A stretch of 55,048 nt of DNA from a virus: positions 1-55,048 of IMG/VR virus record IMGVR_UViG_3300022074_000050; one strand, written 5' to 3'. A program made the position numbers and the translations under genes. The notes beneath the pieces were generated by a model, which saw only the letters and a program-made list of their open reading frames with translations, was not told where the DNA came from and made no database searches. This document shows, one piece after another, positions 803-54,523 of this stretch (within the stretch, counting starts at the first letter, position 1; each line of letters begins with the position of its first letter).

Positions 803-1189
803 TTAAAGCTGTACGATAAACCCTTCATCGATCAGGGCTTTTTTGTAGCAAGCGATAATTCGCTTTTTCTGCTTTTCTGGGTTTTTAGTATTCGGCATAC
901 TGATATGCCCTTCCTGAACTCCTAGATCAGCAACTTGCTGCATCGTAAAATCGTCACGATTAAACTCTGCAGATTCAATATCTTGCATTGAAATAATCAA
1001 GGCTTGGAACTGCGGGGTTTTGACAGTAGTCTCCCCGAGTTGCTTGCCGGTGTACTTAAAGTGCTGTGCAGCACGACCACGACTCGCGGCTGGTGCTTTC
1101 GTTACTTTAATCGCAGATACCTTGGCTACTTTCTTAGCGGCAGGTTTCTTTGGCGCAGCTGGGGCTGCTTCTTTTTTGGCTGTTGCCAT
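803..1189 (-). CDS. Histone H1-like Ala/Lys-rich early protein
   Basis: The 128-residue product has two parts. Residues 1-40 are almost only Ala, Lys, Pro and Val with repeated PAAKK-type motifs, resembling histone H1 tails and bacterial Hc1/HU extensions. Residues 41-128 form a more ordered, still basic part with no family I can name. The N-terminal composition suggests DNA or RNA binding; this is inference. It is the first gene after the promoter at 1251-1279, with a leader hairpin and an AGAAAGGAG site just before the ATG, so it is likely expressed early and strongly. Confidence 0.75.
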   Translation of the reverse strand: MATAKKEAAPAAPKKPAAKKVAKVSAIKVTKAPAASRGRAAQHFKYTGKQLGETTVKTPQFQALIISMQDIESAEFNRDDFTMQQVADLGVQEGHISMPNTKNPEKQKKRIIACYKKALIDEGFIVQL

Positions 1190-3664: not shown

Positions 3665-3993
3665 TAATGCTTAATCATCCCTTCTTCAGAGATCTTTTCA
3701 AGAATACTCTCTCGATCCCCGAAGATTTCTAACAGCTCGAAAGCGTTAGCTCTAATTTCTTCCATCATCTCATCCGCTTCTTCGATCGTATAGTTTAAAA
3801 GATGGATCAAGTTTACCGATCCGACGAATACCATAGCTTTGTATACATCCATCATATCGACATTGCCGTCCCCACGCATCTCTTCTAACCATTCGTTAAT
3901 CGTGTCGAAAATGATCTTTACTTGTTCTTCATCGCATTGGATCTCAAACTCACCGCTCCCAAACATTTTAACTTCCTTTATTCCGGTGCTCAT
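3664..3993 (-). CDS. Acidic hypothetical early protein
   Basis: A strongly acidic, helical protein (109 residues from the ATG at 3993; an alternative ATG at 4008 adds five). The 3993 start is preferred because GGAGACTACTACC precedes it, nearly the same leader as the DUF932 gene. Motifs such as INEWLEEMRGDGNVDMMDVYKAMVF and EEADEMMEEIRANA suggest an all-helical fold. No family is recognised. Its start overlaps the HTH gene upstream, and its stop overlaps the start of the microprotein. Confidence 0.65.
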   Translation of the reverse strand: MSTGIKEVKMFGSGEFEIQCDEEQVKIIFDTINEWLEEMRGDGNVDMMDVYKAMVFVGSVNLIHLLNYTIEEADEMMEEIRANAFELLEIFGDRESILEKISEEGMIKH

Positions 3994-4180
3994 GGTAGTA
4001 GTCTCCATTGCCTTTTTGAACTTTCGTTACGATCTGCCAGATTCGCTGCTTACTTACGTTGTATATCTGTCCTATCTCTTTAAGAGTCATCGTACCGCTA
4101 TCATACAGTTGAAAAATCTGTTTATATGTTTCTTCGTTTTTCGCGATATCTTCTTGCGAAAGACTTTGTATTCGCATCAT
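3968..4180 (-). CDS. Small helix-turn-helix protein, sigma region 4-like
   Basis: A 70-residue protein whose centre (MTLKEIGQIYNVSKQRIWQI, about residues 30-50) has the shape of a helix-turn-helix as in sigma70 region 4: a TLxEIG helix, a turn, then VSKQRIWQI as recognition helix. The N-terminal ETYKQIFQLYDSG helix precedes it. It probably binds DNA and could steer the host RNA polymerase; this is inference. The ATG overlaps the polymerase stop codon (ATGA), so it is co-translated with the DNA polymerase. Confidence 0.7.
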   Translation of the reverse strand: MMRIQSLSQEDIAKNEETYKQIFQLYDSGTMTLKEIGQIYNVSKQRIWQIVTKVQKGNGDYYHEHRNKGS

Positions 4181-6039: not shown

Positions 6040-6346
6040 CTATGAGTCCTCCTGATTCTAGCGAACGAATATGTTGCTCAACTAAAAATAAATACCGTCT
6101 GAGGTCTCCGATATCGTCGAGTAGTCCATCCTCGCCGTCGAACTTTAGCCCTGCTTCGAACACATCGTAATTACAATGCTCGGCTTGCTGTTCGATCCTG
6201 TCGAACTTACGGGCCAACATCATAAACGCTCCCGTACCGCCCCGACGCTTCCACGAATCGCCGTAAGATTTTTCTGATTCGATCAGGCTAACAATGTCTT
6301 CCTGAGCGATATTCTTCATATCCGTCCACTTGCGATCAAGACCCAT
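6014..6346 (-). CDS. DUF1599 / nucleotide-modification-associated (Nmad1-like) protein
   Basis: A 110-residue protein. The ATG at 6346 is chosen because GGAG stands eight bases upstream; the open frame extends further but only inside the thymidylate-synthase gene. Its core has YGDSWKRRGGTGAFMMLARK (29-48), a KFDRIE segment and GEDGLLDDIGDLRRYLFLVE (71-90), which I recognise as the DUF1599 pattern. That family was named nucleotide-modification-associated domain 1 because it sits beside base-hypermodification genes. It overlaps both the ThyA-like gene and the polymerase gene. Biochemical role unknown; family call from memory. Confidence 0.65.
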   Translation of the reverse strand: MGLDRKWTDMKNIAQEDIVSLIESEKSYGDSWKRRGGTGAFMMLARKFDRIEQQAEHCNYDVFEAGLKFDGEDGLLDDIGDLRRYLFLVEQHIRSLESGGLIDADTTDPA

Positions 6347-7388
6347 CTTTATTTCTCCAATTTCTTTCTCGTCGTTTAATCCACTGGAAACAGGCTTGCT
6401 GCCAGTCCAACGCTTTAATTTCTCCGAGATATTTGTAGCAATCTTCATATCGCCGCTCCTTATGGCAGATGTAAGCGTGGATCATCGGGATCATTACTTC
6501 TGGGAAGAAAGTGTTTTTATATTTACTTGCTCCGAATATCGTCGGCCAGCTATCAACCAGCTCAGGGTTTCCTGACACTCGTCTCGGCGGGACACTGCTT
6601 AATAGTTCCTCACATTCTTCTAAGAACGTCTCGGGGTGAGAACAGAGCGGGTAATGTTTTTCTGGATATTCTTCGGATATTGGGAGAAAAGGTGTTACTC
6701 GAAGGTCTTTTACCTTATCCCACTCTTTGTTGAGGTAAACGTGAAAGCTGTCGCTGACTTGGTAGTACGGCCCCATATAGCAGCCCAATGCCGCAGCAAC
6801 ATATTCTTGTAACACCGACATATGAACTGCGTTAGCACCGTAAGCTCCCCAGATCATATCATTCGACCTATTACAGACCGTCATCTGTAATGCGCCATCT
6901 CTAACCTTAAAATAGATATTCGTGTTGCATGGGATATCTTTACTTGGACTATCGAGGTCGTGAACTGGATCCCACATCTGTAAAACTACTCGACGCGAGT
7001 CAGGATCTTTCGTTAGCATATCTATTACGTTTCCAAGCTGGTCGTAATCGAACTGCTGCCTCCACCGATAGCCATAAGAACCGTTTAAGGTTTCATTATC
7101 GTCTGAAAAATTAGCCATGCCTGCGTTAAAGTGAGTGAGCTTTTGTAGATCTCTAGAACCACCTAACATCCAGATCGCTTCATATAGATGAAAGAACGGA
7201 TTAGCGTCTCGTTCTTCACTAAACAGCACCCTCTGCCAAGGTTTGCTATAAACCGTAGTAACCGGAGTGTGGCACTCCATCGTATCTCCGTTACGGCTGG
7301 CCTGTGTTCGATAATTTACTGACGACTGGAATAAGTCAATGCCCCGTAGGAGGGCGTCGTTTACATTGACTGCGCTAATCACCTTCAT
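6336..7388 (-). CDS. Thymidylate synthase / dUMP hydroxymethylase family enzyme
   Basis: A 350-residue ThyA-superfamily protein. The active-site Cys is in DIPCN (Cys154), followed by the phosphate-binding NRS (173-175), SND and GAYGANAVH (181-189). Asn186 lines up with E. coli Asn177, the residue that selects uracil over cytosine, so the substrate is likely dUMP. Glu70 in EAIWMLGG is also conserved. It may make dTMP, or hydroxymethyl-dUMP for modified DNA as in SPO1; the sequence alone does not decide. The neighbours (DUF1599 and glycosylase-like genes) favour a base-modification role. The C-terminal extension beyond about 270 is longer than in E. coli ThyA. Confidence 0.85.
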   Translation of the reverse strand: MKVISAVNVNDALLRGIDLFQSSVNYRTQASRNGDTMECHTPVTTVYSKPWQRVLFSEERDANPFFHLYEAIWMLGGSRDLQKLTHFNAGMANFSDDNETLNGSYGYRWRQQFDYDQLGNVIDMLTKDPDSRRVVLQMWDPVHDLDSPSKDIPCNTNIYFKVRDGALQMTVCNRSNDMIWGAYGANAVHMSVLQEYVAAALGCYMGPYYQVSDSFHVYLNKEWDKVKDLRVTPFLPISEEYPEKHYPLCSHPETFLEECEELLSSVPPRRVSGNPELVDSWPTIFGASKYKNTFFPEVMIPMIHAYICHKERRYEDCYKYLGEIKALDWQQACFQWIKRRERNWRNKDGS

Positions 7389-7611
7389 AAAGACTCTCCG
7401 TCTGCTGATTAATAATGTATTCGATCTGAATACGGCCTAAATCGACTCCTGAAATATACGCTGCCCAATGAATTGCGTTGATAGCGTCTTCCCAAGTATT
7501 CGGCATCGTTTTATCTTGCATCGCTTTTTGTAGGAACAGTCCATAATGTTCCATAGCAAATTCAACCTGACCACTATCTAGGTCTACGACCAACTGTTTG
7601 AGTTTCCCCAT
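7375..7611 (-). CDS. Small hypothetical protein (78 aa) in nucleotide cluster
   Basis: A 78-residue acidic helical protein with an NTWEDAINAIHWAAYISGVD core. No family is recognised. It overlaps the gene before it by 28 bases and the ThyA-like gene after it by 14, so it is tightly coupled into the nucleotide/hypermodification cluster. A helper or regulatory role in that pathway is only a guess from position. Confidence 0.65.
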   Translation of the reverse strand: MGKLKQLVVDLDSGQVEFAMEHYGLFLQKAMQDKTMPNTWEDAINAIHWAAYISGVDLGRIQIEYIINQQTESLYEGD

Positions 7612-8510
7612 TTACTTTCTCCATTCTCTATATCCTCTATGAGAGGACGGTTTCTTTCTGAGTAGTTATAGACGCTTCGGGTGCGTCCTTGTCCGTGCAA
7701 TATGCGAGAGTATTTATCAAACTCACATAGTCCTCCTTCAATCTCCCGCATCTCGAAAGGTCTGTGGAATTTACTAAGGTCTAGCTGTTCTCTACACCAC
7801 TGGTACAGTGCCTGCATTTCGCCGTTCCAATCCCAGCTACGTTTACAAAACTCTAGTGGCCTGCCTGTCAGCCTGTTCAATCCTCTCATTGCTCCAGGCC
7901 CAGCATTCGCCCAAGAACAAATATCCTCAGCGTTTTCTAGTAGGTAGGTATGGCGTAAGTCAGAAACTAGTTCGTACGATACAAATGGGCCGATATACGG
8001 AAACCGCATCAGGTAGTACCACGCGTCACATAAAGACTTGAAGTGTTTGAAGTCTTTTAAGATGCGCTCCCGCTCTACCCATATGTGGCTAACGCATTCA
8101 GCTACGCCTGTTACCTTATCCATGCGATTAGGAGTTTTGACGATATATGCGCCAGTAATCCACTTCGGCTGTTTCCGCACTTCTTCGATCGCTTTCTCTC
8201 GATCCCACTCGGTTAGTAAGTTATGGTCGAGCAGCGTTCTGCCTGTTTCGATCAAGTTGAAGAATCTAAAAATTACCGTCGCCATTAGCACGTCAGGGTC
8301 GTTGCGTAGTGGCTCGCGAATATGCTCGCGAAACCACCGCGTAGTCCTATCGTCCTCGCGGAAGACTTGGCAAAACTTAAACTCTTGCAATATCGGGTCG
8401 AGAGTCCAAGGCGGCTCTAGTTTCTCTTCCTCTTTTACTCGACGTATCCGTTCACGTTCTTCGATCCAGTAAACGTACCGATCTACCTCTGCGGGTATAA
8501 AATTTGTCAT
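7584..8510 (-). CDS. Thymine-hypermodification glycosylase-like protein (aGPT-PPlase / 5hmdU-kinase helical domain family)
   Basis: A 308-residue helical protein. The ATG at 8510 makes an ATGA overlap with the methyltransferase stop codon; an upstream in-frame GTG lacks a ribosome site. Landmarks are FREDDRTTRW (50-59), FRFFNLIET (81-89), PYIGPFVSYELVSDLRHT (171-188, a helix-hairpin-helix-like segment) and ANAGPGAMRGLNRLTGR (201-217). This pattern fits the DNA-glycosylase-like alpha-glutamyl/putrescinyl-thymine pyrophosphorylase and 5-hmdU-kinase helical-domain clade known from phages with hypermodified thymines. No P-loop kinase domain is fused. It would act on hydroxymethyluracil in DNA. 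Family call from remembered motifs. Confidence 0.65.
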   Translation of the reverse strand: MTNFIPAEVDRYVYWIEERERIRRVKEEEKLEPPWTLDPILQEFKFCQVFREDDRTTRWFREHIREPLRNDPDVLMATVIFRFFNLIETGRTLLDHNLLTEWDREKAIEEVRKQPKWITGAYIVKTPNRMDKVTGVAECVSHIWVERERILKDFKHFKSLCDAWYYLMRFPYIGPFVSYELVSDLRHTYLLENAEDICSWANAGPGAMRGLNRLTGRPLEFCKRSWDWNGEMQALYQWCREQLDLSKFHRPFEMREIEGGLCEFDKYSRILHGQGRTRSVYNYSERNRPLIEDIENGESKWGNSNSWS

Positions 8511-9370
8511 GTAGGCTTTCTCAATATCCACGCGCAGTTGTTAGAAACTTCTGGGAAAAACGTCGCGGCAACTACTCGCAAGAACTGTTTACCGTAGCGT
8601 TCTTCGAGTAACTCGAACTGATCAGGTAGCCAACGCCACTCGCCGTCGTCGCCGTCTTTCTGCATAGCCTTCTTTAGTTTAGGCATTTGGCAAAACGTAC
8701 CGACAACCGACTGTAGTTCCCAGCCTCGTGATTCTTTCGTAAGCTCGTCTTTTAGTTCTTCGAAACCCCATTCGTAAACGTGGTCTTCGGGTAACTTGTC
8801 GTTAGAGCCGTCATGGTTAGGCGTTGAAACGTAAATCAATCCTCCTGGACGCAATACTCGGTTAGCGTCATCAAGCCATGGTGCAATAAACTCTCGGCCC
8901 ATATGTTCAATAACTTCGGTAGTCCAGAAAAAGTCTATTGATTCGTCGGGCAGGTCAAATACGGGGTTTACCGTAAGGTCTTGAATATCAATCTGTCCGT
9001 TGAAGTTAGCGAACCATGTTGAATCTTGAACGAATCCAGTAGGGCTGCTATAGCCAACCTTTTCGTTCAGGACAGCGGGGTCGATATCTACGCCGCGATA
9101 AGAGCGGATCACGTCCGACTTCTTTACGGTGTAGGCTTTATACAAATTACGCAGTACCCAAAGTTCTCCGCACCCTGCTTCGAGTACGTCGATAGGTCTG
9201 TCGCGATACTTCGCTTCTCCGATACATAGTGACGAACATTTATCGAAGCGCGTCATATGTGTAATTTCGTCAGGTCGCCAGTTGCCTAGCATATTACCGC
9301 TGGCAATATCCATGCGCGTATTTTTGCTGTCGTTAGCGTTTTCTTGAAGGGTCTTTCTAATAGAGGCCAT
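8507..9370 (-). CDS. Class I SAM-dependent methyltransferase
   Basis: A 287-residue protein with a Rossmann-type SAM site: DVLEAGCGEL (motif I, 61-70), YRGVDIDP (acidic strand 2 motif), FFWTTEVIEHM (post-motif) and RVLRPGGLIYVSTPN (motif with the usual L-x-PGG-hairpin). This is the Methyltransf_11/23-like architecture, usually acting on small molecules, lipids or proteins rather than typical DNA methylases. Its ATG overlaps the upstream stop codon (TAATG), and its TGA overlaps the glycosylase-like gene's ATG. Given these neighbours it could act on a base or base precursor; that is inference. Confidence 0.85.
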   Translation of the reverse strand: MASIRKTLQENANDSKNTRMDIASGNMLGNWRPDEITHMTRFDKCSSLCIGEAKYRDRPIDVLEAGCGELWVLRNLYKAYTVKKSDVIRSYRGVDIDPAVLNEKVGYSSPTGFVQDSTWFANFNGQIDIQDLTVNPVFDLPDESIDFFWTTEVIEHMGREFIAPWLDDANRVLRPGGLIYVSTPNHDGSNDKLPEDHVYEWGFEELKDELTKESRGWELQSVVGTFCQMPKLKKAMQKDGDDGEWRWLPDQFELLEERYGKQFLRVVAATFFPEVSNNCAWILRKPT

Positions 9371-14706: not shown

Positions 14707-14736
14707 ACCTTACCTTAGCGGCTTTTCGTAAGTAAA
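14707..14736 (-). promoter_or_regulatory. Early sigma70-like promoter, copy 5
   Basis: TTTACT (14736-14731), an 18-bp spacer and TAAGGT (14712-14707) on the minus strand. It lacks the TAGTGC lead-in of the other copies because no gene ends upstream. It drives the operon 111 aa - 193 aa - SSB-like - primase - helicase. Confidence 0.6.
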
Positions 14737-14772
14737 CCCCTATTTCCTGTATTCCCCGTATTACCTATATCT

Positions 14773-14794
14773 AAAATAAAATTTTTTATAAAAA
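14773..14794 (+). repeat. 22-bp direct repeat, copy A
   Basis: AAAATAAAAT, two variable bases, then TTTATAAAAA. It matches 54240-54261 in 20 of 22 positions and in the same orientation. Being AT-only, some similarity could be chance, but the second shared element nearby makes that less likely. Confidence 0.5.
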
Positions 14795-14807
14795 AATTAA
14801 CAGAAAC

Positions 14808-14836
14808 GTCTAATAGAGTAATAGAAGTAATAGATA
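14808..14836 (-). repeat. 29-bp inverted repeat element, copy A (tandem CTATTACTT units)
   Basis: On the minus strand it contains CTATTACTTCTATTACT followed by a TATTAG end. It matches 54391-54419 (plus strand) in 26 of 29 positions, so the two copies are inverted relative to each other. Within the element a roughly 9-bp unit is repeated three times. A further related unit lies at 14880-14890. Iteron-like; no known binder. Confidence 0.65.
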
Positions 14837-14847
14837 AGAGTCTAAAC

Positions 14848-14879
14848 TACTGTTTTACATAAGAAACTGAGAAACAGTA
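14848..14879. promoter_or_regulatory. 8-bp inverted repeat, operator-like
   Basis: TACTGTTT (14848-14855) and AAACAGTA (14872-14879) are perfect inverted copies 16 bases apart, upstream of the SNF2 gene. The half-site spacing suits binding of a dimeric regulator. The binder is unknown. Confidence 0.4.
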
Positions 14880-14990
14880 AAAGTAATAGAATATATTATA
14901 TCTATTACAGGCTTCCTACGAATTCAGAAATTCATTTCTTTATTATTCTATTTCTATATACTTACTTATAGAACTTAGAAAGGAACAGCT

Positions 14991-16436
14991 TTGAAGTACG
15001 AATTCAAAACGCAACCGTTTGCGCATCAAAAGACGGCGTTAACCCGTTCATGGAACAAGCCAGAATACGGCTTCTTTATGGAAATGGGAACAGGTAAATC
15101 GAAAGTCCTTATAGATACGATCGGTATTTTATACGGGAAAGGCGCGATCAACGCCGCCGTTATCATTGCGCCAAAAGGCGTATATAAGAATTGGTCGACA
15201 AAAGAGATACCTGACCATATGCCAGACTATATCGACCGGCATGTCGCAGTATGGTCGCCTGCGCCTCGTAAACAGGAAAAGGCAGATCTAATAAAACTAT
15301 TCGATGTAGGCGAAGATAAACTCAAAATCTTCGTTATCAACGTCGAAGCGTTTAGTACAGCTAAGGGTGTCAAGTTTACTGAGAACTTTATCCTCGGTCA
15401 TCAAGTGCTATTCGCGGTTGACGAATCTACGACGATTAAAAACCCGAAAGCCTCACGAACCAAGGCTATTACGAAACTAGCAAAGAATACTAAGTTCCGT
15501 AGGATCCTAACCGGCTCACCAATAACCCAATCGCCGCTAGACTTGTATAGTCAAACTGAGGTACTCGGAACAAGCCTACTTGGGTACAGCTCGTTCTACT
15601 CTTTCCAAAACCACTTCGGAGAGGTCGTAAATCGCTATTTCGGGGGCCGTACCGTTAAACAGGTAGTAGGGTATAGGAACCTAGACGAACTAACGTCTAA
15701 GCTAGATACGTTCTCTTATAGGGTACTTAAAAACGACTGCCTCGACCTACCGGAAAAGTTGTATATCCGTAGAGAAGTAACCCTGACCGCGCAACAAAAG
15801 AAACTGTACACTGAACTAAAAGAACTAGCGATAACAGAACTTGAAAACCAAGAGATGGTAAGTGTTACGAATGTACTCACTCAGCTGCTCAGGTTACACC
15901 AGATTATATGCGGTCATGTAAAAAGCGATGACGGCGTAGAAACACCTATAGATAGCAACCGTATCGACGAACTTATTGAAGTTATCGGGGAGATGCAAGG
16001 TAAGGTGATTATCTGGGCAAACTACCGCCAAAATATCTTAGAGATCGTTGAAACACTACAAGGTCTATTCGGATCGGATTCGGTAGCTGCCTATTTCGGA
16101 GATACAAGTACCGATGAACGTGAACGGGTTATTAAAGATTTCCAGAACCCCGATTCACCGCTCAGGTTTTTCGTAGGTAATACGCAAACAGGTGGGTATG
16201 GTATCACTCTTACCGAAGCACAAAACGTCATCTATTACTCGAATAATTTCGACTTAGAAAAACGATTGCAATCAGAAGATAGAGCACACCGTATTGGCCA
16301 AAAGAACAACGTAACTTACGTTGACCTTGTAGCCAAAGATACGGTAGACGAAAAGATTGTAACAGCGTTGCGTAACAAACTTGACCTCGCCCAAGAAGTC
16401 TTAGGCGACGAAAAGTGGGAAAACTGGTTAAGCTAA
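14991..16436 (+). CDS. SNF2-family superfamily 2 DNA helicase/translocase
   Basis: The only plus-strand gene. The 481-residue product has the SF2 SNF2 motifs: Ia-preceding FAHQ (Q-motif region), MGTGKSK (32-38), VDESTTIKN (DEST in place of the usual DEAH), LTGSPI and the C-terminal QSEDRAHRIGQ. These proteins translocate on double-stranded DNA with ATP. In phages they are usually placed with replication or recombination genes. The start is TTG at 14991 with AGAAAGGA before it. Its last nine bases overlap the 3' end of the convergent late operon. Confidence 0.92.
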   Translation: MKYEFKTQPFAHQKTALTRSWNKPEYGFFMEMGTGKSKVLIDTIGILYGKGAINAAVIIAPKGVYKNWSTKEIPDHMPDYIDRHVAVWSPAPRKQEKADLIKLFDVGEDKLKIFVINVEAFSTAKGVKFTENFILGHQVLFAVDESTTIKNPKASRTKAITKLAKNTKFRRILTGSPITQSPLDLYSQTEVLGTSLLGYSSFYSFQNHFGEVVNRYFGGRTVKQVVGYRNLDELTSKLDTFSYRVLKNDCLDLPEKLYIRREVTLTAQQKKLYTELKELAITELENQEMVSVTNVLTQLLRLHQIICGHVKSDDGVETPIDSNRIDELIEVIGEMQGKVIIWANYRQNILEIVETLQGLFGSDSVAAYFGDTSTDERERVIKDFQNPDSPLRFFVGNTQTGGYGITLTEAQNVIYYSNNFDLEKRLQSEDRAHRIGQKNNVTYVDLVAKDTVDEKIVTALRNKLDLAQEVLGDEKWENWLS

Positions 16437-18370: not shown

Positions 18371-21300
18371 AATATCTCCTCAAGCAAACGGTATATTCGT
18401 TCAGGCATTTCTCTTTGCTCTTCTGTTAAACTAGACAGCTCATCTCTAATTCGCTCACGAGCAGTTTGGTCTTCTTCGCTACCTACGTTTGCTGATCGGC
18501 CTTGAGCAATAGCCGCAGTAACCTGATACATCGTAAGGGCTGGTAATTTTAACTGTTCTGCTCTTAAATATGCTTTTAGTTTTTTAGGATCGGAAACAAT
18601 CTGTCCTAAATAGCGTGCTTTAGCTTCGTCTAATTCTTCAGAAAACACGTCTCTAGCTATACCGATACGAGTGGCAGTTAAGTCTAAGGGGCCGAAGATC
18701 GCTCTACGCAATCTATCTATAGTCCCTCGTCCTGCAGGGGTACGACTTCTTATGTCTTCGACATTTTTTGTCGCCTGTTTGCCGGCATACGTTTCTAAAG
18801 GGTTTCCAGCAAACCCTCTCTGTTTATCCACCATTCTAGCTAAGATTCTAAGATCTTTCGCATATCTAAATGCTTCATCAGCCCCGACTATCGGCTCTAA
18901 AAACCTAGCAGCTTCAGCGTCAGTGTTGAACGGGGTGAGGATTAACTCTTCTAATCTCTTAATATCAAAAGAAGATTCAGGCCCAGCTGCGTCTAACATC
19001 CGTGTCCCGCGAGTCGTTCCTCTAAATTTAGTTCCTCGCAACCCTAACACGACATTTTCAGCAAAATACTCTTGTAACGCAGTTCTTAATTCTGGGTAAT
19101 CCTCTGCCATTTTGCCGAGGTTATTTACGAATCGACCCAGTTGAGTTTCTCGGATATTTTTTGCGCCCTGAGAGGACAGTGTAAAATACTGGTCTAACGC
19201 TTGCGTTAACGTGGGAAACCTACCTGTATCGTCAGCTAGTTTTTCAAGCTCTTTATTGATAGCGCGAACATTAGCTTGAGATTTAGTGATAGACTCTCTA
19301 GCGTTAGTTAAAAAGTCCCGATAGTTTTCAAATTTTACAAAATCTTCTGGGAATAATGCACGAAGCTGTTCTTCGTTTTTAGACATGATTGAGTTAAAGC
19401 GGTTACGGGCTGTGCCAACATCGACATTATCTACGTCAATCTCTCGTTGAACAGACTCTAAAACAGTTGATTTAATCGACTGTAATTTTTCTAACCCACC
19501 TTCTTGTCTACTAATAAATTCAACTAATGCTCTAACTTGTCCAGGGTTGGTAGTTCTAATAAATAAACCTATTTCAGATTCGTCTTTTTTAGCGATGTCT
19601 ACTAAAAACCGAGCAGATAGATCTCTTTGTTGGTCGGCAAGTTTCGTAGCAAGAATTTGATATTCACGACCAACTTCGTCGTAAACTCTTTCCATATTCT
19701 CTGGGGCTTTTTTGCCGGTCTGTACCTTATACATTTGACGAAAGTTATCGTCGATTGCATTATCAATGCTATCAATAAGTGCTTGGCCTTTTTCACGAAT
19801 AACTTTATTAGGGTGTCCAGATATCGCTGCGGATAAGTTTTCCCTAGTTAAAATTAGCTCTCGTTGAGTAAAGTCTCGTTGAGGTAAAAACTGTCCCCCC
19901 TCTCGACCCTGCCCTAATAGCATTTGGATACTTATTCCTTCAGTTTCTCGATTCGGCAAAATAGCTCTAATAAACTCTGCCGCTTCAGCTGCGTCTTCAG
20001 AGCCGAATACAATACCTTCTTGTTTATTAGCGTTTAAAAAATCTTCAAGAGCACCTTTTATATATTTAGGAAGTTTGACAGTCGCTTGGCTATCGTTATA
20101 TTGCTCTCTAGATAATATACCGTCTATTTGAGAACGGGTGCCGTCTAGTTCTTCACTGCGCTGAACAATAAGCCTTGATTTTCGATCAGGGAATGCTTGA
20201 CTTTGTGCTGTACTAACTTGTTCTTGAATGTTTTCTGCAGCTTGTTGTCTTCCAGCTCGAGAAGTATCTAACGCAAATGCTTGCCCTAATTGCTGATTAG
20301 CCATATTTTCGGCTAATGCTCGTTCTTCTTCTGAAAGCTCGCTAACTAATTTCTGACTACGAATACCAGTAAAAACATCGTTTAATGTTTCTTTAGTAAT
20401 TCCTAAATCTTCAGCCTCTCTAGGATTGAGACCCGATTTTCTTAAAATATCAGTATAAAACTGTTCTAACAACGAAGAGTTTGACCTATGGAAATCTTCT
20501 AATTTTCCAGCTATGGGCATTTCTAAAGCAATTTCCGACATCAATTCTTCAAACGCTATGATTTGTTCGTTATCAGACATTTGTCCAAGAGTTTGAGCTT
20601 GCTGCCTAATTCTCCTTGCTGCTTCTGTAGAACCTTCTTGGGTAATTCTTATAATTTCTGCAGGAGTTAGTTCGTCAAATTGTTCAGCGAAACCAGTTTC
20701 TTCTTGAACAACTTCAGTAATTCTTCGACGCATTTCGGGAGTCGTTTCCTCAGGAAGCGCGTCTGCATCACCGTTATTAACTCGACGAATTTTATCGCCT
20801 AATACTCTTGCTTCGACCATCATTGTATCAATTATTTCACTAGATACTGGTCGACCAGTCAATTTAGACCACATAGCCCCAAGGCTTCTAAGGAATGCGT
20901 CTCCTCCTGCACCATACATAAGTGCCGCTTTGAATACGGCCCCCGAATCTTCTGCTGCTCTTTCAAAAGTTAGGTCAGGCTGTACGTTGCCGCCTGCTTC
21001 GGTTGCACCTAAAGCAAGTTGTCCAAATCGTATAAGAGTTTCAGTGCCAGCTACTCCGAGTGCTGTAGCTCCAACTTCAACCACTGCCTTACCGAACCTA
21101 GATTCAGGTAATCTGTAAAGAGCTTCGCCTTCATCTATATCGGTAGCTTTTCTTTGCAGTCTTTGCTGGATTCTGTTTTTAGCTACTTTACCAGCTACGT
21201 TTGTAAGAAAACCACCAGCCGCGATTCCCGCGCCTTCTTGCGCTCCAAATTTAGCAAGTTCCCGTAACGCAGGAGAGATGTCGCCTTCTAATGCTTCTTC

Positions 21301-43885: not shown

Positions 43886-44347
43886 TTATTGCAGAATATC
43901 TTCTGGATTATTTACAGTAGCTAAAATTTCGTCATCGTTTAAAAGACGCATATCGCCTCCGTCGATGTTAAACCTAGCTCCCGCGTAGCGACCAAAAATT
44001 ACCCAATCACCCTCTTCACACCAAGAGCCATCAGGAAATTTATCTGGATCGGAATAAGCATCTGGGCCTTTTCTTACGACAAGCCCTACTACGGTAGCTA
44101 TCCGCTCTTTATCAAGAGTTTGTTTAGCTAACATAATGCCGCCTTTTGTTTTCTCTGGAGGAGTAAACGGCAGAATTAACAAACGATACCCAGTAGGGTT
44201 CGGCAGTTTATCTGCATGAGCTTCATAATTTTCAGAGGTTATACTTTCTTTAGTAGGTTCCAATGGCGTATCAGAACCAAAATTAAGAACTCGTTCTGGG
44301 GTAGCTCCTATGCTACTTAAATCAACGTCTTCAGTCGTCTTCGACAT
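43886..44347 (-). CDS. GroES (Cpn10)-like co-chaperonin
   Basis: A 153-residue protein. The ATG at 44347 (MSKTTED) is preferred, with GGAAGGATGGAAG before it; an upstream ATG adds five residues. After a 47-residue N-terminal extension comes the Cpn10 core: PTGYRLLILPF (51-61), EKTKGGIMLA (65-74, the position of the mobile loop), then IATVVGLVVRKGPDAYSD, WCEEGDWVIFGRYAGARF (109-126), and a C-terminal LLNDDEILATVN. It should cap GroEL and help fold the capsid protein, as gp31 does in T4. It lies between portal and scaffold genes. Confidence 0.9.
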   Translation of the reverse strand: MSKTTEDVDLSSIGATPERVLNFGSDTPLEPTKESITSENYEAHADKLPNPTGYRLLILPFTPPEKTKGGIMLAKQTLDKERIATVVGLVVRKGPDAYSDPDKFPDGSWCEEGDWVIFGRYAGARFNIDGGDMRLLNDDEILATVNNPEDILQ

Positions 44348-44531
44348 CTTCCATCCTTCCATGCAGGGTAGTTATTTCTTGTTCAGCGAAATTAAGCCCT
44401 GAGATTTCACCAACGACACGTTGGTACTGAACAAAGTCTTGTGCGCCACCTGTGGCGAGAGTCTGCGCGAGATCTTCTTGTCTCTCGCGCAGCTTGCGGA
44501 GTAAATACTCCGAATATTTTATAAAGTCCAT
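44331..44531 (-). CDS. Small coiled-coil protein (66 aa)
   Basis: A 66-residue, helical, charged protein (YLLRKLRERQEDLAQTLATG, QYQRVVGEISGLNFAEQEIT) likely to form a coiled coil. Its start overlaps the upstream stop codon (TAATG), and its end overlaps the GroES-like gene. No family is recognised. It may be a small assembly factor in the head module. Confidence 0.6.
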   Translation of the reverse strand: MDFIKYSEYLLRKLRERQEDLAQTLATGGAQDFVQYQRVVGEISGLNFAEQEITTLHGRMEDVEDD

Positions 44532-53606: not shown

Positions 53607-53624
53607 CGTGGTGGGTGGGTGGGT
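53607..53624 (+). repeat. G-rich direct repeat, copy 2
   Basis: Identical to 53536-53553 and 53 bases from it; it runs into the small terminase stop codon (53626-53624). Confidence 0.6.
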
Positions 53625-54196
53625 CAATCGCTCTCTCGCTCAATTAATACAGTCGATCCGTCTGTCGATCCGATCCGATTCGTAATCTGTCCCTCGATCG
53701 TTTGCGGTACGCGCTTCGTGATAAGCTGTCCAAGTCGATCGATCAGCTGATCCTTCGAGAGCATGTCGATCTTCGCGGTCAATACCTCGCGTCGATCGAT
53801 GTAAAGCCCCCCGACCTTCCCTCGGTGTATCTCTGCCGTGATCGCTGCGTTAATCTGCCCCGACTCCCGTGCCTCCTCACGCAAGTCATGGAGCGCGGAG
53901 AGGTGGCCCTCCATGGAAACTCTATCCCTCTCTGCCTCCTTGATTTCCTGGTCTATAAGGTAATTTCGCAAAAGTGGGTTGTGGTTGAGTAAGACGCTGC
54001 CTTGTCGTTTGGCTGCGGCTCGATTCTTCGTATAGCCTGCTTTTACCGCTGCTTCGGTAGCGTTTTGGCCTTTCAAATACTCTCGAGCGAACTTCTTTTG
54101 TTTCGGATTTAGCGGTTGCCATCTCTTACCATCGGCGTCGATGTAGCCCATTCCGTCATCAGCAGGTGTCAGGGGAGTGTACTGTAGTTCTTTCAT
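53624..54196 (-). CDS. Terminase small subunit
   Basis: A 190-residue protein with a typical helix-turn-helix region (LNPKQKKFAREYLKGQNATE and AAVKAGYTKNRAAAKRQGSV, about 28-68), then a charged coiled-coil part (EIKEAERDRVSMEGHLSALH), a LYIDRREVLTAKIDML segment and a C-terminal tail. This matches the terminase_2-like small subunits that bind the packaging site. It heads the late operon. A GATC-rich 3' end and G-rich repeats just after it are candidate recognition sites. Confidence 0.9.
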   Translation of the reverse strand: MKELQYTPLTPADDGMGYIDADGKRWQPLNPKQKKFAREYLKGQNATEAAVKAGYTKNRAAAKRQGSVLLNHNPLLRNYLIDQEIKEAERDRVSMEGHLSALHDLREEARESGQINAAITAEIHRGKVGGLYIDRREVLTAKIDMLSKDQLIDRLGQLITKRVPQTIEGQITNRIGSTDGSTVLIERESD

Positions 54197-54239
54197 GCAG
54201 TGTTTCCGAGGATCGTAAGCGTGTAGAACTATATCTTAG

Positions 54240-54261
54240 AAAATAAAATAATTTATAAAAA
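54240..54261 (+). repeat. 22-bp direct repeat, copy B
   Basis: Matches 14773-14794 in 20 of 22 positions, same orientation (AAAATAAAAT, two variable bases, TTTATAAAAA). Confidence 0.5.
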
Positions 54262-54390
54262 GTAAAAGTTTTCCTCATGGCCTCTCACCACTATTCACTG
54301 TTCTCGTTTCAATAACCTATACGATTTCTATTACTTTCTCGTCACACTCATCACGGCCCCCAGCTCTCGTATCCATTGGCTTCTTTCACT

Positions 54391-54419
54391 TTTCTATTAC
54401 TTCTATTACTTTATTAGTC
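54391..54419 (+). repeat. 29-bp inverted repeat element, copy B
   Basis: Contains two tandem CTATTACTT units then TATTAG. It matches the minus strand at 14808-14836 in 26 of 29 positions. The two copies lie at the two early/late boundaries of the genome. Confidence 0.65.
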
Positions 54420-54499
54420 GTTTTAGTTGAAAAAAATAAAAAAAGTTTTTTTTCTAAATAGACAATATACGCAATATCGCGGGTCGTTCTAATAGGCAC

Positions 54500-54523
54500 A
54501 AAAAAGCCCGCTCGAGGCGGGCT
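54500..54523 (-). terminator. Intrinsic terminator after the 115-aa early gene
   Basis: On the minus strand AGCCCGC and GCGGGCT form a 7-bp stem with a TCGAG-type loop, followed by TTTTTT. It lies 20 bases after the stop codon at 54543 and separates the early operon from the late region. Confidence 0.9.

Follow-up and report, generated by a model that had tools for sequence, protein, structure and literature searches.

What function could be served by two AT-rich, gene-free regions that lie far apart in one viral genome and nevertheless share sequence? The window, i.e., the whole stretch of DNA analysed, is the 55,048-base virus record IMGVR_UViG_3300022074_000050. Its circularly permuted genome is estimated from relatives at ~60 kb, with the window falling short of it by roughly 2-5 kb; a clade contig, IMGVR_UViG_3300037962_000140, exceeds this estimate with 81,920 bases, either because its genome is larger or because its assembly repeats some sequence. 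The main genes of the window are all transcribed leftward, with a helicase gene as the one exception. Locus 1 lies between the start (14680) of the leftward early replication operon, whose genes it adjoins, and the rightward gene for this SNF2-type superfamily II helicase, while locus 2 lies between the early-operon terminator and terS, the gene for the terminase small subunit, with which the late operon opens. From the layout of circularly permuted relatives, the early operon probably extends to that terminator. The first-pass annotation had described both loci as non-coding, AT-rich and placed at the early/late boundaries, and it was right in all three respects. On this predicted layout the loci are both ends of the late arc and each points inward, locus 2 to a 38-kb late operon that begins with terS and locus 1 to the lone helicase gene. 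Over the early arc they are separated by ~15 kb in the window and by 17-21 kb in relatives.

The 29-bp element that had been reported to match in inverted orientation between 14808-14836 and 54391-54419 is indeed found there, with 26 of 29 positions identical. The inversion is explained by the strands, as the helicase gene is on the plus and terS on the minus strand, and the orientation relative to the downstream gene is equal. A direct 22-bp match (14773-14794 with 54240-54261, 20 of 22) also exists, but it probably does not join homologous parts: 54240-54261 is the T-rich stretch immediately upstream of the -10-like hexamer of terS, whereas the positional counterpart of 14773-14800 is the tract at 54420-54460, which adjoins the boxes described below and has equal orientation relative to them. 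With up to 3 mismatches allowed, the window contains no other copy of either element, and neither occurred in shuffles of the whole window. The best 29-mer match between the intergenic regions had 27 identical positions versus 22 in 300 dinucleotide shuffles, and the best 22-mer match had 20 (direct) and 21 (inverted) versus 19 in 300 dinucleotide shuffles of both regions. Instead of the two shared elements of the first-pass annotation, the unit common to the loci is a module of ~230 bp, which is present at the same two places in relatives.

This composite module comprises an A/T tract, three 9-bp-spaced STAATAGA boxes, a spacer of 44-57 bp, another cluster of boxes, and a T-rich stretch that contains a -10-like TATAMT hexamer without a -35 (Table 1). 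Read toward the gene, its order is a GTATTAGTCTATTTAGA-type flank, the A/T tract (~25-40 bp), TTAACARAA, and the three (C/G)TAATAGA boxes with starts 8-9 bp apart, followed by a spacer of changing sequence, AAAGTAATAGAA, inverted boxes, GAGGCCRCGAGAAAACTTTTA and the T-rich stretch, the last two being clearest in diverged lineages. The four 60-bp stretches of lowest duplex stability in the window fall at the two loci, one on each A/T tract and one on each promoter stretch; the same four also rank first for low stability in the relative G005. In the alignment of relatives, the base content of the A/T tract is more conserved than its sequence.

Table 1. Coordinates in the window of the module parts, neighbouring signals and genes discussed in the text
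Feature	Position	Strand	Basis
Gene for 128-aa protein with basic, probably disordered N-terminus; second candidate binder	803..1189	-	clade distribution
Gene for 70-aa stand-alone sigma-70 region-4-like HTH protein, early operon; leading candidate binder	3968..4180	-	PF04545
Early-type promoter candidate of leftward replication operon, TTTACT, 18 bp, TAAGGT	14707..14736	-	motif in relatives
Locus 1 flank left of A/T tract, GTATTACCTATATCTA, degenerate inverted box-like	14758..14773	+	TATTAG/CTATT-type flank common to both loci across relatives
Locus 1 A/T tract (contains the 22-bp element), one of the window's least stable duplex stretches	14773..14800	+	alignment, duplex stability
Locus 1 boxes CTAATAGA, GTAATAGA, (A)GTAATAGA, 8- and 9-bp starts; core of the 29-mer	14810..14834	+	
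Locus 1 spacer, variable sequence, nearly constant length	14835..14879	+	triplet-cluster 62-65 bp in 41/41 sequences
Locus 1 downstream cluster AAAGTAATAGAATATATTATATCTATTAC, a direct box followed by inverted ones	14880..14908	+	
Locus 1 promoter-proximal T-rich stretch, very low duplex stability, contains -10-like hexamer	14921..14980	+	
Locus 1 TATACT -10-like hexamer, 34 bp ahead of the helicase start, lacking a -35 consensus	14957..14962	+	
SNF2-type superfamily II helicase gene, downstream of locus 1	14991..16436	+	PF00176, PF00271, phrog_62
terS, terminase small subunit gene, downstream of locus 2	53624..54196	-	PF03592
Locus 2 TATAGT -10-like hexamer, 37 bp ahead of the terS start, lacking a -35 consensus	54228..54233	-	
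Locus 2 GAGGCC element and T-rich UP-like tract ahead of -10, includes 54240-54261	54234..54286	-	
Locus 2 downstream cluster AAAGTAATAGAAATCGTATAGGTTATTG	54308..54337	-	136-138 bp from terS start in 36/36 sequences
Locus 2 boxes CTAATAAA, GTAATAGA, (A)GTAATAGA; core of the second 29-mer	54393..54417	-	
Locus 2 A/T tract, positional counterpart of 14773-14800	54420..54460	-	
Locus 2 flank GTCTATTTAG, left of A/T tract	54454..54463	-	
Intrinsic terminator, early-operon end, just upstream of locus 2	54505..54523	-	similar stem in most relatives

Relatives of the helicase and of terS were taken from IMG/VR and their upstream regions aligned, which gave a comparison set of ~50 related contigs. The boxes, their spacing and their orientation are retained in 41 helicase-side and 36 terS-side sequences and in further IMG/VR stretches, and the larger clade contigs have strong array matches at the helicase and terS places. 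Absence from the homologous intergenic regions of relatives had been named beforehand as evidence against a shared function, and the elements are retained there. The composite pattern was found in 67 stretches in IMG/VR, and within that database only in this clade; the stretches examined adjoin helicase, terS or gp32 homologs, or carry the module at a contig end. The bare 18-mer also occurs in IMG/VR outside the clade, with no terS or helicase homologs nearby and, as read by eye, apparently mostly in coding sequence. That the similarity arose by chance or by a recent duplication of functionless AT-rich DNA could be argued from the composition of the two non-coding regions, and we give it next to no credence: the geometry is fixed in the relatives, the copies are not homogenised, and a search of 257 billion bases from cellular genomes with the relaxed composite pattern gave a single stretch, which lies on the chromosome of an endosymbiont and is taken as a chance match. 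Conservation across diverged relatives, as read from the alignments, already refutes this explanation.

Module identity is 0.74 for the locus pair of the same genome, 0.75 for loci of different genomes and 0.83 within a locus. As two copies from the same genome do not resemble each other more than copies from different genomes do, each copy is kept by selection and not by gene conversion. Recombination sites, one of the functions proposed in the first-pass annotation, were rejected on the same lack of homogenisation, and no integrase was recognised among the proteins scanned. Of the other functions it offered, control regions are best supported, with paired origins as a serious rival.

The module was not seen upstream of the helicase in the more distant phages DSL-LC04, psg01, HTVC027P and HTVC023P. 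The region upstream of terS in HTVC023P (L231:10660-11870) contains several copies of a different repeat family, CTAGGAAA, which is perhaps the functional counterpart of the module in that lineage. The late intergenic region of DSL-LC04 contains a 36-nt inverted repeat (L233:20562-20597 and 20729-20764) whose arms are 83% complementary and 131 bp apart. A GroES-like co-chaperonin (Cpn10) is encoded among the head genes in the window (43886-44362, minus strand) and likewise in DSL-LC04 and HTVC023P.

The distances within the module and from it to the gene are constrained. The box triplet and the cluster are separated by 62-65 bp in helicase-side sequences and by 63 or 74-75 bp in terS-side ones, and these values are suggestive of two classes one helical turn apart, as seen in few independent indels among related sequences. 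The cluster stays 136-138 bp from the terS start despite divergence of the leader and a terS identity of only 79%. Nearly all terS sequences have TATAGT or TATACT at -36/-37, i.e., 100-101 bp from the cluster, and one lineage has TAGAAT at 96 bp. Most helicase sequences have TATACT or TATAAT at -34 to -37, with mostly 72-76 bp to the cluster and 84-87 bp in more diverged lineages; the hexamers are weaker or otherwise positioned in three helicase-side groups (L016, L037, L039). In a diverged lineage in which gp32 is ~600 bp off, the module is still ~192 bp from the helicase gene, and at locus 2 the module is tied to terS because no gene there is transcribed away on the other side.

A late promoter is expected at locus 2, between the terminator and terS. 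What was found at both loci in most lineages is a -10-like hexamer at a fixed position without a -35 consensus, together with a candidate activator-site geometry that is constant relative to it; a promoter scan did not find a two-hexamer promoter at the -10 positions of the modules. Counting against a promoter, TATAMT matches are readily found in AT-rich DNA. Unlike these hexamers, the early-type promoter candidate beside locus 1 has a -35, and the motif TTTACT-N17/18-[GT]TAA[AG]G occurs on the gp32 side of the module in 16 of the 23 loci examined. An RNA element was rejected, with no match in Rfam and with the boxes lying upstream of the inferred transcription start.

The place directly upstream of terS, the phased repeats and the A-tracts would also suit a pac or cos packaging site recognised by TerS at locus 2, with locus 1 as a related or decoy copy, and TerS of phage SPP1 binds a pac site in its own genome (PMC6316719). 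We consider this very improbable, since the copy at the other end of the late arc is conserved to the same degree, and the ends of helicase-bearing contigs are not clustered at either module but are spread, many of them near the tail-spike region.

On these grounds we hypothesize that the two loci are control modules for -35-less late promoters that are bound by a phage protein, a reading to which we give about an even chance. We infer binding, activation and their timing as follows. An early phage protein would bind the STAATAGA boxes cooperatively, at the triplet and at the phased second cluster, and form one nucleoprotein complex at the module. This complex would recruit or activate the host RNA polymerase at the TATAMT hexamer, which is preceded by a T-rich UP-like tract, and could thereby turn on late transcription, of the 38-kb operon from terS and of the helicase gene at locus 1. 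The complex at locus 1 would form just upstream of the leftward early promoter and could damp that promoter too. An early-to-late switch is thus the most economical account of the module anatomy, and several features speak against it. The A/T tract is ~200 bp upstream of the inferred start and has no obvious role in transcription except bending; the boxes are at least 60 bp upstream of that start, too far for a simple replacement of sigma region 4; and the cluster is ~74 bp from the -10 at one locus and ~101 bp at the other, which are not whole helical turns apart.

The same anatomy would fit boxes that act as operators for a repressor or silencer holding both late promoters off early in infection, with activation by loss of the repressor or by another factor, and multiple phased sites with an AT-rich tract would also suit a repressor that loops DNA. 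We regard such an arrangement as quite improbable, because the promoters, lacking a -35, would be weak unaided and because the candidate protein is encoded in the early operon, which is better suited to an activator.

The most serious competitor of the control modules is that the loci are two replication origins comparable to SPP1 oriL/oriR, at which a phage initiator would bind the iteron-like boxes and melt the A/T tract, with forks that fire or stall at two sites. In the circular SPP1 genome, ~13 kb separates two origins that contain direct repeats and AT-rich unwinding elements (PMC6316719). Here, too, direct repeats lie beside an easily melted AT-rich tract in two copies per genome on the short arc, one of them next to replication genes, the lowest duplex stability falls within the modules both in the window and in G005, and the A/T tract is conserved in base content more than in sequence. 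We see this as possible but doubtful. The orientation of the modules and their distances are tied to the downstream genes and to the -10-like hexamer, which an origin does not need. Among the proteins scanned, Pfam, PHROGs and NCBIfam gave no recognisable initiator, helicase loader or DnaB-type helicase, several early proteins being unassigned, and inspection of the modules by eye showed no canonical DnaA box. The GC-skew analysis advised in the first-pass annotation proved uninformative, as the shift at four-fold sites in the window was not consistently reproduced in G005, G010 and DSL-LC04. A DnaA-trio oriC, with [TA]A[GA] triplets in register by DnaA boxes, was rejected; the register is broken in relatives by linkers such as ATC, CTC and TTC while the boxes are kept.

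It is also conceivable, albeit unlikely, that one module does both jobs, with a sigma-region-4-like protein that melts the A/T tract for replication and switches on the late promoter. If true, such a dual-role module would couple late transcription and replication at both ends of the late arc.

A phage-encoded binder of the proposed control modules would be required in every box-bearing genome, and candidates were therefore judged by their co-occurrence with the boxes, which carries little weight, as further early genes are likewise clade-specific. The best candidate, as we infer from domain profile and distribution, is the 70-aa region-4-like protein. It scores 31.9 bits with PF04545, above the curated cut-off of 24.1, the profile also matches sigma factors in the PDB, and there is a weak match to Mor. 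It occurs in all 15 clade records and in none of the 4 outgroups. Its recognition helix TKQRVWQI is well conserved, the remainder drifts to 28-40% identity, and in some lineages (L276, L278) the protein is extended by ~50-80 residues. The 128-aa protein was found in 14 of 15 clade records, the remaining contig ending before the gene, and in 0 of 4 outgroups; its AlphaFold model has a three-helix core with short strands (pLDDT ~80) and found no fold match in the PDB. The 230-aa HTH protein that the first-pass annotation had put forward as a binder is an unlikely one, as it was detected in only 5 of the 15 clade records that carry the boxes. A host protein is a possible binder as well.

Several elements of the proposed switch have parallels in known systems. 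The phi29 late promoter A3 has a poor -35 and requires p4 (PMC3100819), and in the A2c-A2b-A3 region (p4, p6) several A-tract binding sites surround early promoters and this late promoter, which an early protein activates via a multimeric DNA complex (PMC3100819), akin to what we propose. The phi29 system differs in that it consists of one region with inverted CTTTTT-N15-AAAATG sites, whereas the phages studied here have two regions, one at either end of the late arc, the boxes are STAATAGA and the candidate protein is unrelated. At the Mu promoter Pm, Mor replaces the normal -35 contact and a partial UP element is present (PMC4390567, PMC4461284). The Mu middle and late promoters need a small phage activator, Mor or C, as would the promoters proposed here, and the weak Mor match of the candidate protein is a further likeness; Mor, however, occupies one 16-bp dyad centred at -43.5, while the boxes here form two phased groups at 60-200 bp upstream. 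The SPP1 late promoter PL1, which precedes gene 1 (terS), has a canonical -10 and an atypical -35, and late transcription needs an unidentified early phage factor (PMC6316719). It resembles locus 2 in its place just upstream of terS and in a -10 without the usual -35, but no second PL1-related promoter was found in SPP1, whereas a second copy of the module lies here upstream of another gene. SPP1 oriL/oriR, where gp38 acts on direct repeats and an AT-rich unwinding element, is likewise similar in that the circular genome has two copies, of which one is close to replication genes and the other lies in the late region, and in the repeats beside an AT-rich stretch (PMC6316719); it differs from the modules in their fixed distance to the gene and the -10-like hexamer and in their second phased cluster, and no gp38-type initiator was recognised here. 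None of the phi29, Mu and SPP1 systems as described in the cited papers has the box, the two-copy arrangement at the late arc or a stand-alone region-4-like presumed binder.

The group is one of uncultivated aquatic phages, distant relatives of HTVC023P-type and DSL-LC04 phages, for which we found no description of a promoter or origin; the literature searched on the clade and on YuA-type promoters held nothing directly relevant. The module offers a concrete, testable switch for these phages, and the box, the spacing rule and the candidate protein could be tested in a laboratory host without the phage. If true, a two-copy module that brackets the late arc and has a stand-alone sigma-region-4-like protein as its candidate binder would be a compact definition of the late genes, with one regulator and two sites. 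A protein with a 5-hmdU DNA kinase domain (PF18723) and a thymidylate synthase-family protein are encoded in the window at 7584-8531 and 6336-7388 (minus strand), respectively. The phage could possibly make hypermodified thymidine, so that late in infection the DNA carrying the boxes and promoters may be modified when it is read.
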